Source: Cellulomonas flavigena DSM 20109
Lineage (GTDB): Bacteria > Actinomycetota > Actinomycetes > Actinomycetales > Cellulomonadaceae
NCBI RefSeq assembly: GCF_000092865.1
Contig: NC_014151.1
Span: 2,976,001 to 3,040,000 of the forward strand
Length of the DNA: 64,000 nucleotides
Direction of reading: 5' to 3'
The first letter of the stretch is position 1. Each line of letters opens with the position of its first letter. A program made the position numbers and the translations under genes. The notes under the pieces were generated by a model. It searched no databases, had not been told where the DNA came from, and worked only from the letters and a program-made list of their open reading frames with translations. Below, piece by piece: positions 56,325-61,061 of the stretch.

Positions 56325-58265
56325 TCAGGCGAGCGGTGACAGCGCCTTGTCGACGGCGGCCGCGACGTCGACCGCCACGCGCTCGGTGAGCGAGCGGCGG
56401 TGCGCACGGTCCACGCGCACCTCGACGACGCTCGTGCCCGTGCCCGGCGCCGCGAGCGCGGGCAGCAGGCCCTCGGTGTCGACGACGCGCGTGTGCCGCA
56501 CGCCGTACGCCGCGCACAGCGCCGCGACGTCGACGCCGTGCGGCGTGCCGAACACGCGCTCGAAGACGTCGGCACGCTCCGGCTCACCGTGCTCGAGCGT
56601 CGTGAACACCGACCCGCCGTCGTCGTTCGCGACGACGAGCTGCAGGTCCACCGGGTGCTCGAGGGGTCCGCGCAGCAGCCCGCCCACGTCGTGCAGGAAC
56701 GTGAGGTCCCCGAGGTACGCCCGCACTCGCCGGTCGGGCAGCGCGAGCGCGACGCCCGTCGCCGTGGCCACCGTGCCGTCGATGCCCGCGAGCCCACGGT
56801 TCGCCAGCACGAGCGGGGCGATGTCCCAGCGGGCGACGAGGTCGAGGTCGCGCACGGGGTTCGACGAGCCGACGACGAGCACGTCGTCCGGCGCGCTCGC
56901 GCGCGCGACGGCGCGGGCGAGGGCCCACCCGCTGACCCGCGGCCCGCTGCGCGAGCGGCGCGCGTCCTCCGGGGTGTCGAGGACACCGGCGAGCACCTCC
57001 TGCGCCGCCTCGTCGGCCGTGCGCCAGGCGTCGAGCCAGCCCGCGGGCGCGCCGACGCGTCCCTGGCGCATGCGCCACGGCACCTCGAGCAGCACCTGGG
57101 AGGCGTTGCGCGCGGCGTCGGGCCAGTCGGTGCCGCGAGGCGCGACCACGAGCACGTCGACGTCGGGCCGCGCGAGCAGCGCCTGGACGGGACGTGTGAG
57201 CGTGGGACGGCCCAGCACGACGACGCGCCCGACGCGCCCGCCCAGCCGGTCGTCCGCCAGCAGCATCCGGTACGCGCCGATCGCGCAGGGGCCCTGCCGG
57301 GCGCCGGACGACGGCTCGGCGAGCAGCGGCCAGCCGTTGGCCTCGGCGAGGCGGGCGGCCCCGGGGCCGGCCCCGTCGCCCGCGACGACGACCGTGGGCA
57401 CCGTCCCGCGCGCCCGGCGCGACGGTCGCACGGGCGCGTCGGTGTCGTCGGCGACCAGGTCGGCGACCAGCGGCAGCACGCCCGTCGCACCGACGGCGGG
57501 CTCGCTGGGCAGCGCGCGCCCGACGACGTGCGACAGGCCCGCGTCGGCAGGTGCGGGCCACGGTTCGCCGCCGGGCACCAGCGGGTCGCGGAACGCGAGG
57601 TCGAGGTGGACGGGCCCGGGGTCGCCGGTGCGGGCCCCCGTCGCGGCCGCGAGCGCGCGCGACACGGTCCGGCGCAGGTCACGGTCCTCGCCGGGGCGGC
57701 CGGTCGGCGCGGGGACGTCGACGGCGAGGCGGACCGCGGGACCGAACAGCCCCGGCTGCTCGGTCGTCTGGTTGGCGCCCGTGCCACGCAGCTCGTGCGG
57801 GCGGTCGGCCGTCACCAGCACCAGCGGCACGCCGGTGTGGTGCGCCTCGAGGACCGCCGGGTGCAGGTTCGCCACCGCGGTGCCCGACGTCGTGACGACG
57901 GCGACGGGCCGCGCGGCGGCAGGACCGCGCGCGCCGGCGTGCGCCGACGCCTTGGACAGCCCGAGCGCGAGGAACGCCGCGTCACGCTCGTCGATCCGCA
58001 CGTGCAGCCGCAGCGCGGGCGCGCCGACGGGCCGCTCGTCGTCGGGACGGGCCGCGTCGGCCAGCGCGTACGCGAGCGGGGCGCTGCGCGACCCGGGGGC
58101 GAGCACGACGTCCCGCACACCGAGCGCCGCGAGGGCCTGCACCACGACGCGGGCGGCAGCGACCGACGGCGGGGCGGGCGGCCCGTGGTCGGGCACGGGC
58201 GCGGCCCTGCGCCGCCGACGGGGCGCGGGCGCGTCGTCGGGCTGCGGTGTCACGCCCGCCATCAT
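56325..58265 (-). CDS. menD: SEPHCHC synthase (MenD)
   Basis: A 646-residue thiamine-diphosphate enzyme. APGSRSAPLAYALAD, the catalytic-Glu region RIDERDAAFLALGLSK, TTSGTAVANLHPAVLEA and TADRPHELRGTGANQTTEQ are diagnostic, and the C-terminal ThDP fold contains GDLTFLHDVGGL and VVANDDGGSVFTTLEHG. It joins isochorismate to 2-oxoglutarate. The ATG at 58265 overlaps the menC stop by 4 bp; the next codon is also ATG. The N-terminal 35 residues are a basic extension. Confidence 0.95.
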   Translation of the reverse strand: MMAGVTPQPDDAPAPRRRRRAAPVPDHGPPAPPSVAAARVVVQALAALGVRDVVLAPGSRSAPLAYALADAARPDDERPVGAPALRLHVRIDERDAAFLALGLSKASAHAGARGPAAARPVAVVTTSGTAVANLHPAVLEAHHTGVPLVLVTADRPHELRGTGANQTTEQPGLFGPAVRLAVDVPAPTGRPGEDRDLRRTVSRALAAATGARTGDPGPVHLDLAFRDPLVPGGEPWPAPADAGLSHVVGRALPSEPAVGATGVLPLVADLVADDTDAPVRPSRRARGTVPTVVVAGDGAGPGAARLAEANGWPLLAEPSSGARQGPCAIGAYRMLLADDRLGGRVGRVVVLGRPTLTRPVQALLARPDVDVLVVAPRGTDWPDAARNASQVLLEVPWRMRQGRVGAPAGWLDAWRTADEAAQEVLAGVLDTPEDARRSRSGPRVSGWALARAVARASAPDDVLVVGSSNPVRDLDLVARWDIAPLVLANRGLAGIDGTVATATGVALALPDRRVRAYLGDLTFLHDVGGLLRGPLEHPVDLQLVVANDDGGSVFTTLEHGEPERADVFERVFGTPHGVDVAALCAAYGVRHTRVVDTEGLLPALAAPGTGTSVVEVRVDRAHRRSLTERVAVDVAAAVDKALSPLA

Positions 58266-59218
58266 GCCCGAGCGCGCACGGCGGTGAGCCGCGCGTCCCA
58301 GCGGGCCACGAGCGCCGGCGTGGCGCGTGCGGCGTCGAGCAGAGCCGGGTCGGGCTCCGGGCGACGCGCCTCGATGACGCCGCCGCGCGGCAGGAGCGGG
58401 TCGGCCACGAGGTCGTCGGCCAGCAACGCCGCGGTCGCCAGGCCGCAGGCGTACGGCAGCTCGGGCAGCGCGGCGGCCAGCGCCAGGCCGGCGGCGAGCC
58501 CCACGGAGGACTCGAGCGCGGACGACACGACCACGGGCAGTCCCGCCTCCTCGGCGAGCCGCAGGCACGCGCGCACGCCGCCGAGCGGCTGCACCTTGAG
58601 CACGAGGACGTCGGCCGCGTGCCGGCGCACGACGGCGAGCGGGTCGTCACCGCGGCGCACGGCCTCGTCCGCCGCGAGGGGCACGTGCGTGCGGCGTCGC
58701 AGTGCGGCGAGGTCGTCCACGCCGGGCACCGGCTGCTCGGCGTACTCGAGCCCGCCGGCGGCGCGGTCGAGCGCCGCGAGGGCGGCGGCCGCGGCGTCGA
58801 CGTCCCAGGCGGCGTTGGCGTCGACCCGGATGGCACCGTCGGGCCCCAGCGCGTCGCGCACGGCCTCGAGCCGCGCCTCGTCGGCACCCGCCGGCTGTCC
58901 GGGCTCGGCGACCTTGACCTTGGCGGTGCGGCAGCCGCCCGACGCGGTGACGATGCGGTGCGCGTGCTCGGGGTCGACGGCGGGCACGGTCACGTTGACG
59001 GGAACGTGCGTGCGCACGGGCGTCGGCCAGCCCTCGTCGGAGGCCTCGCGCGCCGCGCGCCACCAGCGCACCGCCGCGTCGTCGTCGTAGTCCCAGAAGG
59101 GGCTGAACTCGCCCCACCCCGCGTCGCCGCGCACGAGCACGCCGTCGCGCCGCGTCAGCCCGCGGAACCGCGTCGTCAGCGGCACGTCCCACACGACCAG
59201 GTCCGCGAGCCCTCTCAC
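58262..59218 (-). CDS. menC: o-succinylbenzoate synthase
   Basis: A 318-residue enolase-superfamily enzyme. The catalytic Lys pair is in AKVKVAEPG; metal ligands are in VDANAAW, YAEQP and LAADEAVRRG; the second catalytic Lys is in VLKVQPLGG. It dehydrates SHCHC in the third menaquinone step. GTG at 59218 follows TAGCCT by exactly six bases. It is coupled to menD, and its promoter borders the repeat array at 59252-59640. Confidence 0.94.
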   Translation of the reverse strand: MRGLADLVVWDVPLTTRFRGLTRRDGVLVRGDAGWGEFSPFWDYDDDAAVRWWRAAREASDEGWPTPVRTHVPVNVTVPAVDPEHAHRIVTASGGCRTAKVKVAEPGQPAGADEARLEAVRDALGPDGAIRVDANAAWDVDAAAAALAALDRAAGGLEYAEQPVPGVDDLAALRRRTHVPLAADEAVRRGDDPLAVVRRHAADVLVLKVQPLGGVRACLRLAEEAGLPVVVSSALESSVGLAAGLALAAALPELPYACGLATAALLADDLVADPLLPRGGVIEARRPEPDPALLDAARATPALVARWDARLTAVRARA

Positions 59219-59230
59219 GCACCCAGGCTA
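59219..59230 (-). promoter_or_regulatory. -10 element of leaderless menC transcript
   Basis: Minus-strand TAGCCT (59230 to 59225) plus six bases, then the menC GTG. Hexamer and spacing are identical to murB. Confidence 0.62.
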
Positions 59231-59251
59231 GGGGCCCTCCCCCGCCCCCAC

Positions 59252-59640
59252 CGACCGGAACATCGCTCACCGTCCGGGGCTCGCACCGGTGACCCAGGTT
59301 CCGCTCGCCGACCGGAACACCGCTCACCTCTCACGGTGCGTCGCGGTGACCCAGGTTCCGCTCGCGGCACCCGCGCCTCGCCGACCGAAACACCGGTCAC
59401 CTCTCGCGGTGCGGAGCGGTGACCCAGGTTCCGCTCGCGGCGCCCGCGCCTCGCCGACCGGAACACCGGTCACCGTCCGGGGCACGGACGGTGACGCAGG
59501 TTCCGCTCGCCGGCCGGAACACCGGTCACCTCTCGCGGTGCGGAGCGGTGACCCGGGTTCCGTTCGCGGCACCCGCCCTCGCCGAGCGGAACACCGGTCA
59601 CCTGTCGCGATGCGTAGCCGTGACCGGTGTTCCGCTCGGC
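59252..59640. repeat. six-copy array of 48-nt inverted repeats (duplicated trimer)
   Basis: Units start at 59256, 59313, 59386, 59459, 59515 and 59587. Each is a left arm CGGAACACCGGTCACC (or near variant), a 16-nt middle, and a right arm like GGTGACCCAGGTTCCG; unit 4 is 47 nt. The arms pair over 7 and 6 bp around a 3-nt mismatch; in unit 6 they pair at 15 of 16 positions. Units 1 and 4 share one middle (CGTCCGGGGC start), the other four another (TCTCGCGG type). Spacers are 9, 25, 25, 9 and 24 nt, so units 1-3 are repeated as 4-6 with a period of about 202 bp. The array fills the divergent menC/menB spacer. I see no gene in it and no second array in the window. Confidence 0.9.
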
Positions 59641-59722
59641 GGGATGGGCGTGGGGTGTGGGGTGGGGAGTGGGGTTCCGGTGGGCGGGGCACGCAGGGCG
59701 TCGGGGCGGGGCGGGCGGTCGT

Positions 59723-59734
59723 TAGGGTGGGGCG
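59723..59734 (+). promoter_or_regulatory. -10 element of leaderless menB transcript
   Basis: TAGGGT at 59723-59728 is followed by six bases and the GTG at 59735. The 82 bp between it and the repeat array is G-rich with no clear -35. Confidence 0.6.
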
Positions 59735-60718
59735 GTGAGCTCGGACGCCGCCCCCGCCCCCCTGCCCGCGCGCGTGTCGGAGACGTTCGACCCGACGCGG
59801 TGGCGCGACGTCGAGGGGTTCGACGGCCTCACCGACCTCACCTACCACCGCGGGTACGCGCGGCCCACCGCCGCGCAGGCGGCGGCCGGCGCGGCGCCGC
59901 GTGACCTGCCCGTCGTGCGCGTCGCGTTCCACCGCCCGGAGGTCCGCAACGCGTTCCGGCCCCACACGGTCGACGAGCTGTACGCCGTGCTCGACCACGC
60001 CCGCACCACGTCCGACGTGGGCACCGTGCTGCTCACCGGCAACGGACCGTCGCCCAAGGACGGCGGCTGGGCGTTCTGCTCCGGCGGGGACCAGCGCATC
60101 CGGGGCCGTGACGGTTACCGGTACGCCGACGGCGAGACGGCCGAGGCCGTCGACCCGGCCCGCGCGGGGCGGCTGCACATCCTCGAGGTGCAGCGGCTGG
60201 TCCGGACGATGCCGAAGGTCGTCGTCGCGCTCGTCAACGGCTGGGCTGCGGGCGGCGGGCACTCGCTGCACGTCGTCGCCGACCTGACGATCGCCAGCCG
60301 TGAGCACGCGCGGTTCATGCAGACCGACGCGAACGTCGGCTCGTTCGACGGCGGGTACGGCTCGGCGCTGCTCGCGCGGCAGGTGGGGCAGAAGCGCGCA
60401 CGGGAGATCTTCTTCCTCGCGCGGGAGTACTCGGCCGACGACGCGTACGCGTGGGGCGCCGTCAACGACGTCGTCCCGCACGCCGAACTGGAGGACGCGG
60501 GGCTGGAGTACGCGCGGATCGTCGCGACCAAGTCGCCGCAGGCGATCCGCATGCTGAAGTTCGCGTTCAACCTCGCCGACGACGGCCTGGCCGGTCAGCA
60601 GGTCTTCGCGGGCGAGGCGACGCGCCTGGCGTACATGACGGACGAGGCCGTCGAGGGCCGCGACGCGTTCCTCCAGCGGCGCGACCCGGACTGGTCCGGG
60701 TTCCCCTACGCCTACTGA
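59735..60718 (+). CDS. menB: 1,4-dihydroxy-2-naphthoyl-CoA synthase
   Basis: A 327-residue crotonase-fold enzyme. VAFHRPEVRNAFRPHTVDEL, the oxyanion and active-site stretch GGWAFCSGGDQRIRG, NGWAAGGGHSLHVVADLTIA, and the MenB-specific TDANVGSFDGGYGSALLARQ. It cyclises o-succinylbenzoyl-CoA. It is longer at the N terminus than E. coli MenB (about 40 extra residues). GTG at 59735 follows TAGGGT. It converges on a small membrane-protein gene, with only 6 bp between stops. Confidence 0.95.
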   Translation: MSSDAAPAPLPARVSETFDPTRWRDVEGFDGLTDLTYHRGYARPTAAQAAAGAAPRDLPVVRVAFHRPEVRNAFRPHTVDELYAVLDHARTTSDVGTVLLTGNGPSPKDGGWAFCSGGDQRIRGRDGYRYADGETAEAVDPARAGRLHILEVQRLVRTMPKVVVALVNGWAAGGGHSLHVVADLTIASREHARFMQTDANVGSFDGGYGSALLARQVGQKRAREIFFLAREYSADDAYAWGAVNDVVPHAELEDAGLEYARIVATKSPQAIRMLKFAFNLADDGLAGQQVFAGEATRLAYMTDEAVEGRDAFLQRRDPDWSGFPYAY

Positions 60719-60724
60719 GGCGCG

Positions 60725-60904
60725 TCAGGACGGGCTGACCCAGGACATCAGGTCGAGCAGCGAGGCGACCACGGCGCCGCCGCCGACCAGCAGCATGACG
60801 AGGACGAGACCTGCGGCGACGACGGCCACGGCCGAGCGGAGCGAGTGGTCCTCGGGCTCACGGCGGGACGGGCGGACGGTGGGGAACGAGGTGTGTGCGG
60901 CCAT
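60725..60904 (-). CDS. small single-helix membrane protein, unknown function
   Basis: A 59-residue frame starting ATG at 60904: MAAHTSFPTVRPSRREPEDH, then one clear hydrophobic helix (about 24-52, with VVAAGLVLVMLLVGGGAVVA), ending SWVSPS. The basic/acidic start before the helix suggests the N terminus is cytoplasmic. The stop is 6 bp from that of menB. There is a fair gap (157 bp) to the DUF3048 gene on the same strand. The clean amphipathic layout and use of the whole gap favour a real gene; there is no recognised family. Confidence 0.6.
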   Translation of the reverse strand: MAAHTSFPTVRPSRREPEDHSLRSAVAVVAAGLVLVMLLVGGGAVVASLLDLMSWVSPS

Positions 60905-61061
60905 GCCCCCAGCGTCGCGCCGACGGCACCGCCGACGCGTCGCCCCGCGGGACCGTCCTGCGCGGCCACGTTCCGCCCTGCGGCTGGCGCCACCTCCACC
61001 GTGAGGAGGAGGGGCCGCGCACCGTTGTCGTCCCCAGGTATCGCCGACGGCCGCAGCGGCG

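Follow-up and report, generated by a model that had tools for sequence, protein, structure and literature searches.

The six inverted repeats between the menC-like and menB-like genes of Cellulomonas flavigena appear, on balance, to belong to a lineage-specific, REPIN-like, non-autonomous repeat family that was amplified locally at this site. The window, the whole stretch of 64,000 nucleotides that was analyzed, covers positions 2976001 to 3040000 of a genome (designated G000) that consists of a single contig of 4,123,179 bases. A mobile repeat was one of several possibilities raised in a preliminary description of this DNA, and it is the one that the results favor most, because there are many copies elsewhere in the genome, few or none in relatives, and one copy inside a gene. 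The mobility of the family is something that we infer. Membership in the REPIN/RAYT system itself is not claimed, because neither the transposase of that system, in a search for it, nor its sequence tag, by inspection of the consensus, was found.

Six inverted-repeat units were confirmed in positions 59252 to 59640, with cores that run from CGGAAC to GTTCCG. Each unit consists of two arms of ∼23 nt, inverted with respect to each other across 16 nt, and is ∼66 nt long overall. As initially described, the cores were 48 nt long with the exception of one of 47 nt (unit 4), and two types of middle were present, one in units 1 and 4 and the other in units 2, 3, 5, and 6. The spacers, previously given as 9 or 24 to 25 nt, measured 9, 25, 25, 9, and 24 nt, and the period of the trimer was 203 bp (previous estimate, ∼202 bp). 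Within the window, the arm pattern had eight matches, every one of which was inside the array (100 shuffles: mean, 0.11; maximum, 1).

The inner stem of unit 4 and the nearly complete pairing of the arms of unit 6 had also been pointed out, and both were recovered (Table 1). When the units were folded as single-stranded DNA, only unit 4 (z, −3.56) and unit 6 (z, −9.06) folded clearly better than shuffled sequences. Unit 5 was marginally better (z, −1.88), and units 1 to 3 folded no better than shuffled DNA (z, 0.52, −0.16, and −0.76). The proposal that the array is a duplicated trimer agrees with the order of the spacers, the 81% identity of the two trimers (166 of 204 columns), and the finding that unit 1 is closest to unit 4 (86% identity). 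However, identity is higher between units 2 and 3 (91%) and between units 3 and 5 (92%) than it is between units 2 and 5 (89%) and between units 3 and 6 (82%), and for this reason the identities make a single trimer duplication only a plausible origin of the array.

Table 1. Features of the array and its surroundings, in window coordinates
Feature	Position	Strand	Remarks
menC-like gene (enolase superfamily)	58262..59218	-	PF13378, PF18374
Left flank of the array, C-rich	59215..59244	.	Measured over 30 nt; overlap with the menC box
TAGCCTG box, -10-like, just upstream of menC	59224..59230	-	Similar box in 16/16 loci measured
Unit 1, type A middle	59256..59303	-	Orientation assigned from arm letters
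Unit 2, type B middle	59313..59360	-	Orientation assigned from arm letters
Unit 3, type B middle	59386..59433	-	Orientation assigned from arm letters
Unit 4, type A middle	59459..59505	-	47 nt; 11-bp inner stem; orientation assigned from arm letters
Unit 5, type B middle	59515..59562	-	Orientation assigned from arm letters
Unit 6, type B-like middle	59587..59634	.	Full complementarity between arms 59580-59601 and 59620-59641
Right flank of the array, G-rich	59646..59675	.	30 nt measured
TAGGGT box, -10-like, just upstream of menB	59723..59728	+	Similar box in 16/16 loci measured
menB-like gene (ECH_1)	59735..60718	+	PF00378

The array is one of many in its genome. When 3 mismatches were tolerated, a 19-letter pattern of the arm matched the whole genome at 27 forward and 29 reverse places, compared to 0 for the reversed control. 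A covariance model was built from 37 copies (36 distinct) that were picked by the pattern and oriented by their own letters, so that its conservation and asymmetry are partly by construction. This model found at least 82 places in at least 39 clusters; among the matches listed, 18 clusters had a single unit, 11 had two, 4 had three, 4 had four, one had six (the men array), and one had eight. A script pattern (16-nt spacer; up to 4 substitutions) that was applied to the fetched stretches also yielded 82 units at 39 sites, 16 of which were single. The script missed the cluster at 3233468, which has a 12-nt spacer, and added a site at 3293449 to the clusters of the model, which brings the total to at least 40 sites, with some cluster sizes differing between the two counts. 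Searching the genome for the arms, as had been recommended, therefore revealed many copies outside the men locus (at least 38 other clusters). Similarity was higher within arrays (0.859; 91 pairs) than between loci (0.704; 3381 pairs), which fits local duplication.

Within the genus, the sampling included a single further species in which the family is abundant. With no more than 3 mismatches allowed, the two-arm pattern was detected in 2 of 81 genus genomes, G000 and G068 (73 and 41 places per strand, respectively), and in its strict form in none of the remaining 79, with 0 matches for the reversed control; 9 of the 81 genomes miss 90% completeness or 5% contamination. At the family level, 4 of 221 genomes matched, although G090 (one place) and G185 (two places) did so only when 3 mismatches were allowed, and there was one control match, in G218. 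Among 396 genomes drawn from the order, a draw that did not include G068, the only matches with up to 2 mismatches were those in G000 (58 places) and a single place in G352.

The covariance model, which is more tolerant, had matches in 15 of the 81 genus genomes at an E value of 0.01. Three of the 21 model loci that were fetched were G068 copies. The loci in three near relatives that the strict pattern scores as empty (L139 in G079, L143 in G010, and L149 in G003) each had one degenerate unit with the outer arms of the G000 family. At the model loci of two further groups (G028 and G048; G002, G016, G017, and G023), most repeats differed in sequence but had the same layout, and those of G007 and G062, as well as one of G023, look like chance matches. 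Same-layout repeats with arms like CGAACGGGACCTGGCTCACG were observed at L137 and L151 (G028) and at L138 and L154 (G048); the corresponding pattern was present in 3 of 81 genomes (four places in G048, two in G028, and one, at 3 mismatches, in G016). Other same-layout repeats, with arms around ACAACATG, were observed at L140 (G017), L141 (G016), L142 (G023), L144 (G002), and L256 to L262. The ACAACATG pattern was present in 7 of 81 genomes, with one to six places in each (those in G024 and G037 required 3 mismatches), and was absent from G000 and G068.

The initial suggestion that the array regulates the men genes did not find support in the men loci of relatives. The comparison comprised 30 of 78 menB matches, with menC and menB adjacent in 17; the intergenic flanks seem too far diverged among the relatives for a target-site duplication to be read from them. 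The locus of G000 has six units and that of G068 has one, and the other 15 of these 17 loci have none; an element specific to men was rejected on this evidence, and at least 38 other clusters in the genome argue in the same direction. It is unlikely that the array serves these two genes as a dedicated switch, because the repeats are scattered throughout the genome and, of the other species sampled in the genus, just one has them in large numbers. Cellulomonas came first among the 80 named loci listed for menC relatives, with 90% identity in the best segment to Cellulomonas sp. B6 and Cellulomonas avistercoris. The two −10-like boxes are candidate promoters, with patterns that were chosen after the loci had been viewed; 16 loci were measured, and L175, in which the genes are adjacent and there is no unit, was left out. 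The two boxes are 492 bp apart in G000, 106 bp apart in G068, and 10 to 78 bp apart in the remaining loci. If the array influences menB and menC at all, it would do so incidentally, by pushing the two boxes apart, and the case is a warning not to take an array at one promoter for a regulator of that gene. The men segment of G068 is duplicated (G068:C1:3263621 and 3352651, ∼89 kb apart), and the same single unit is present in each copy.

The repeats showed no preference for a particular arrangement of neighboring genes. In G000, the neighboring genes were codirectional at 14 sites, convergent at 12, and divergent at 10, and a further 3 sites fell within called genes; the numbers for G068 were 18, 3, 6, and 4, respectively. 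The duplicated men segment of G068 was counted twice in these gene-context counts and in the flank-skew and gap counts, and not in the arm-linkage or flank-pairing tests. Neither genome differed from its site-free control gaps (chi-square P values, 0.20 and 0.51), and a preference for one arrangement was therefore rejected. The expectation that such repeats avoid divergent promoters also failed, since 10 of 36 intergenic G000 sites were divergent compared to 14 of 70 control gaps (Fisher P value, 0.46). Genes were called with a simple codon model trained on four window genes, and one of the 3 sites scored as inside genes, at position 2594 of L236, may be the result of a wrong start codon.

Among the 3 of 39 G000 sites that were called as lying within genes, one is well supported. 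In this gene, which encodes an ABC ATPase (named from its motifs), one unit forms an in-frame stretch that is absent from 12 of 14 aligned genomes. The same linker has other insertions in G044 and G050 and a PADRN peptide in G068. In-frame units were observed in L206:2402-4126 (flippase-like) and L236:4435-5604 (ABC ATPase-like), with protein names assigned by eye, and yield peptides like ADRNPGHLP and VPVGG.

The pairing of the arms was evaluated in the 37-copy alignment. Paired cells made up 77.6% of the total in the observed alignment and 77.6% in shuffled ones, and the covariation score (0.120 versus 0.116) was reached by 175 of 500 shuffles. Pairing did exceed that of slid alignments, as would be the case for any palindrome, and one column pair (9-58) was unpaired in 21 of 36 copies. 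When linkage was analyzed with one random unit per site, at 69 sites from G000 and G068, none of nine variable positions showed a dependence between the letters of the two arms (no |z| above 1.6). Linkage was found within arms, between positions 16-17, 16-18, 17-18, and 19-20 (MI for positions 16-17, 0.33 versus 0.05; sd, 0.03). Because the arms are independent of each other, are linked internally, and have no excess of covariation, we read them as two half-sites, which may be recognized separately, rather than as a conserved RNA. A small stem inside each arm, between positions 9 and 20, was considered and rejected (24.1 complementary versus 26.0 shuffled).

The 30-nt flanks were rich in C to the left of the arrays and rich in G to the right at 39 of 39 G000 sites and 31 of 32 G068 sites. 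This skew was not present 300 to 900 bp out, and the midpoints of site-free gaps did not have it (means of 0.00 for 61 gaps and 0.01 for 50 gaps). An exact palindromic extension of the units by the flanks was rejected, because most blocks were near chance when compared to re-paired flanks. The exceptions were nucleotides 10 to 13 (z, 2.0) and 19 to 25 (z, −2.2) in G000 and nucleotides 19 to 25 (z, 1.9) and 36 to 45 (z, 2.3) in G068.

These data bear on several other explanations of the array. A local tandem-duplication accident unrelated to other places would account for the resemblance of the array copies to each other, and the lack of conservation at the men locus, which had been named beforehand as one mark of such an accident, was indeed found. 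The other mark, few or no copies elsewhere, was not, and with at least 38 other clusters in the genome the copy census refutes this explanation, to which we attach next to no weight. The preliminary description also considered a structured transcribed RNA, and a structured RNA or bidirectional terminator on the menB and menC transcripts might be suspected from the strong folding of units 4 and 6 and from the 12 of 36 intergenic G000 sites that lie between convergent genes. However, there is no excess of covariation, column pair 9-58 is mostly unpaired, re-paired flanks match each other as well as the true flanks do in most blocks, the array is upstream of both genes, and positions 58000 to 61000 have no Rfam match at the gathering score. 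A structured RNA was rejected because there is no excess of compensatory changes in the stem, the arms are independent, and the flanks do not pair exactly, and any RNA or terminator function at this locus seems very unlikely. It would be less surprising, but still improbable, if the units were binding sites of a host protein, such as a nucleoid protein or a regulator, with inverted half-sites that multiplied because binding was useful. Arms that act as independent half-sites at a near-constant spacing of 16 nt and eight sites common to G000 and G068 are consistent with such a role; the absence of the strict pattern from 79 of 81 genus genomes, a gene context that does not differ from that of control gaps, and the copy within a coding region count against it.

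A serious rival, even if we consider it unlikely, is descent of the repeats from an old element that was already present in an ancestor of G000, G068, and their near relatives, was lost or decayed in most members of that clade, was amplified or kept in two, and is perhaps immobile now. Eight of 39 G000 sites, the men locus included, share both flanks with a G068 site (in L190, L194, L198, L240, L244, L245, L249, and L251; counted from BLAST rows), compared to a rough expectation of 0.4 if 3000 gaps are assumed. Common descent accounts for these shared sites and for the degenerate copies just as well as movement does. The single degenerate units in G079, G010, and G003 have the same outer arms, and the PADRN peptide in the corresponding linker of the ABC ATPase of G068 is, at the peptide level, what one arm would encode. 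However, inheritance would require many near-complete losses, and G000 and G068 were grouped in 0% of 200 bootstrap trees both for menB (30 genomes) and for three genes (13 genomes), with the caveat that both trees were poorly resolved (10 of 27 and 4 of 10 inner branches well supported, respectively). Furthermore, units at shared sites were no more alike than others in a test of low power (4 to 23 of 26 other loci were equal or better; flanks were 76 to 92% identical at best segments). Shared ancestry and site preference both remain as explanations of the shared sites.

A REPIN-like family that amplified locally, the reading that we prefer, can be compared with known repeat systems. BIMEs are arrays of palindromes between genes in which REPs alternate in orientation. 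The G000 family likewise forms arrays of intergenic palindromes, but in eight of its arrays no pair of units was assigned opposite orientations by our own letter rule, with several assignments ambiguous. REPINs consist of two short inverted arms around a spacer that form a hairpin and are dispersed, mostly extragenic, and also found in ordered tandem clusters that include flanking sequence (PMC3116915). The Cellulomonas repeats resemble them in having closely spaced, short, inverted arms in many dispersed copies, in being mostly extragenic, and in forming ordered tandem clusters with flanking sequence included. They differ in the absence of a detected RAYT (PF01797), in ∼23-nt arms with a 16-nt spacer, in polarized C-rich and G-rich flanks, and in having an actinobacterial host, and the GTAG tag at the foot of REPs was not apparent by eye in the family consensus. 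CGTC-tagged REPs are similarly palindromic with some copies inside genes, and are reported to seem to lack a dedicated transposase (PMC3733652). In contrast to the Cellulomonas family, they have stems of 8 to 9 bp, loops of 4 to 5 nt, and a CGTC tag, none of which was seen by eye in the family alignment. Palindromic elements of Rickettsia are also inserted in frame into protein genes, but they are ∼150 bp long and frequent in genes (PMC10969869), compared to 3 of 39 sites called inside genes here.

A RAYT-like enzyme had been suggested as the source of mobility. No match to the RAYT/Y1 transposase family PF01797 was found in any of the four genomes searched (G000, G068, G078, and G025), in a search for which the control was positive in 5 of 14 named genomes. 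There was no transposase among the 25 families listed for each genome, out of the 162 and 121 that were matched by 76 and 61 neighboring proteins, respectively. A phage or plasmid origin was rejected on similarity, as phage, plasmid, and viral collections gave no match, one of the searches being for the exact pattern only. Among the titles listed from the open-licence literature, none describes such repeats in Cellulomonas, and a description elsewhere is possible.

The repeats of other species suggest an extension of this picture, which we put forward tentatively. Several Cellulomonas lineages might each hold their own version of one architecture, moved by a non-Y1 enzyme that reads the arms separately. 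The shared design would be a pair of ∼20-nt arms inverted around a gap of ∼16 nt, with similar preferences for the letters beside AAC. The versions seen were the G000/G068 family, GAACGGG in G028 and G048, and ACAACATG in G002, G014, G016, G017, and G023.

For the men array, each arm would be read by a protein, and an enzyme encoded elsewhere would have moved the element, which would have landed between the two men promoters. Tandem duplication, in one round perhaps of a whole trimer, may then have enlarged the array. If this is correct, a genus of actinobacteria contains REPIN-like repeats in the absence of the transposase by which the known system is defined. Its sampled genomes, with many copies in 2 of 81 and few or none in the rest, would form a natural series in which the enzyme could be sought by gene content.

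Several minor features of the G000 repeats were also observed. The periods of the arrays were often near 73, 84, and 95 bp, a regularity seen after the fact, and there were fewer clusters between 1.5 and 3.0 Mb, in bins that were picked after looking. At L008 (genome positions 3233375 to 3233447), a short tandem repeat with CGAGGCGTCGTTCCGGC adjoins a repeat unit.
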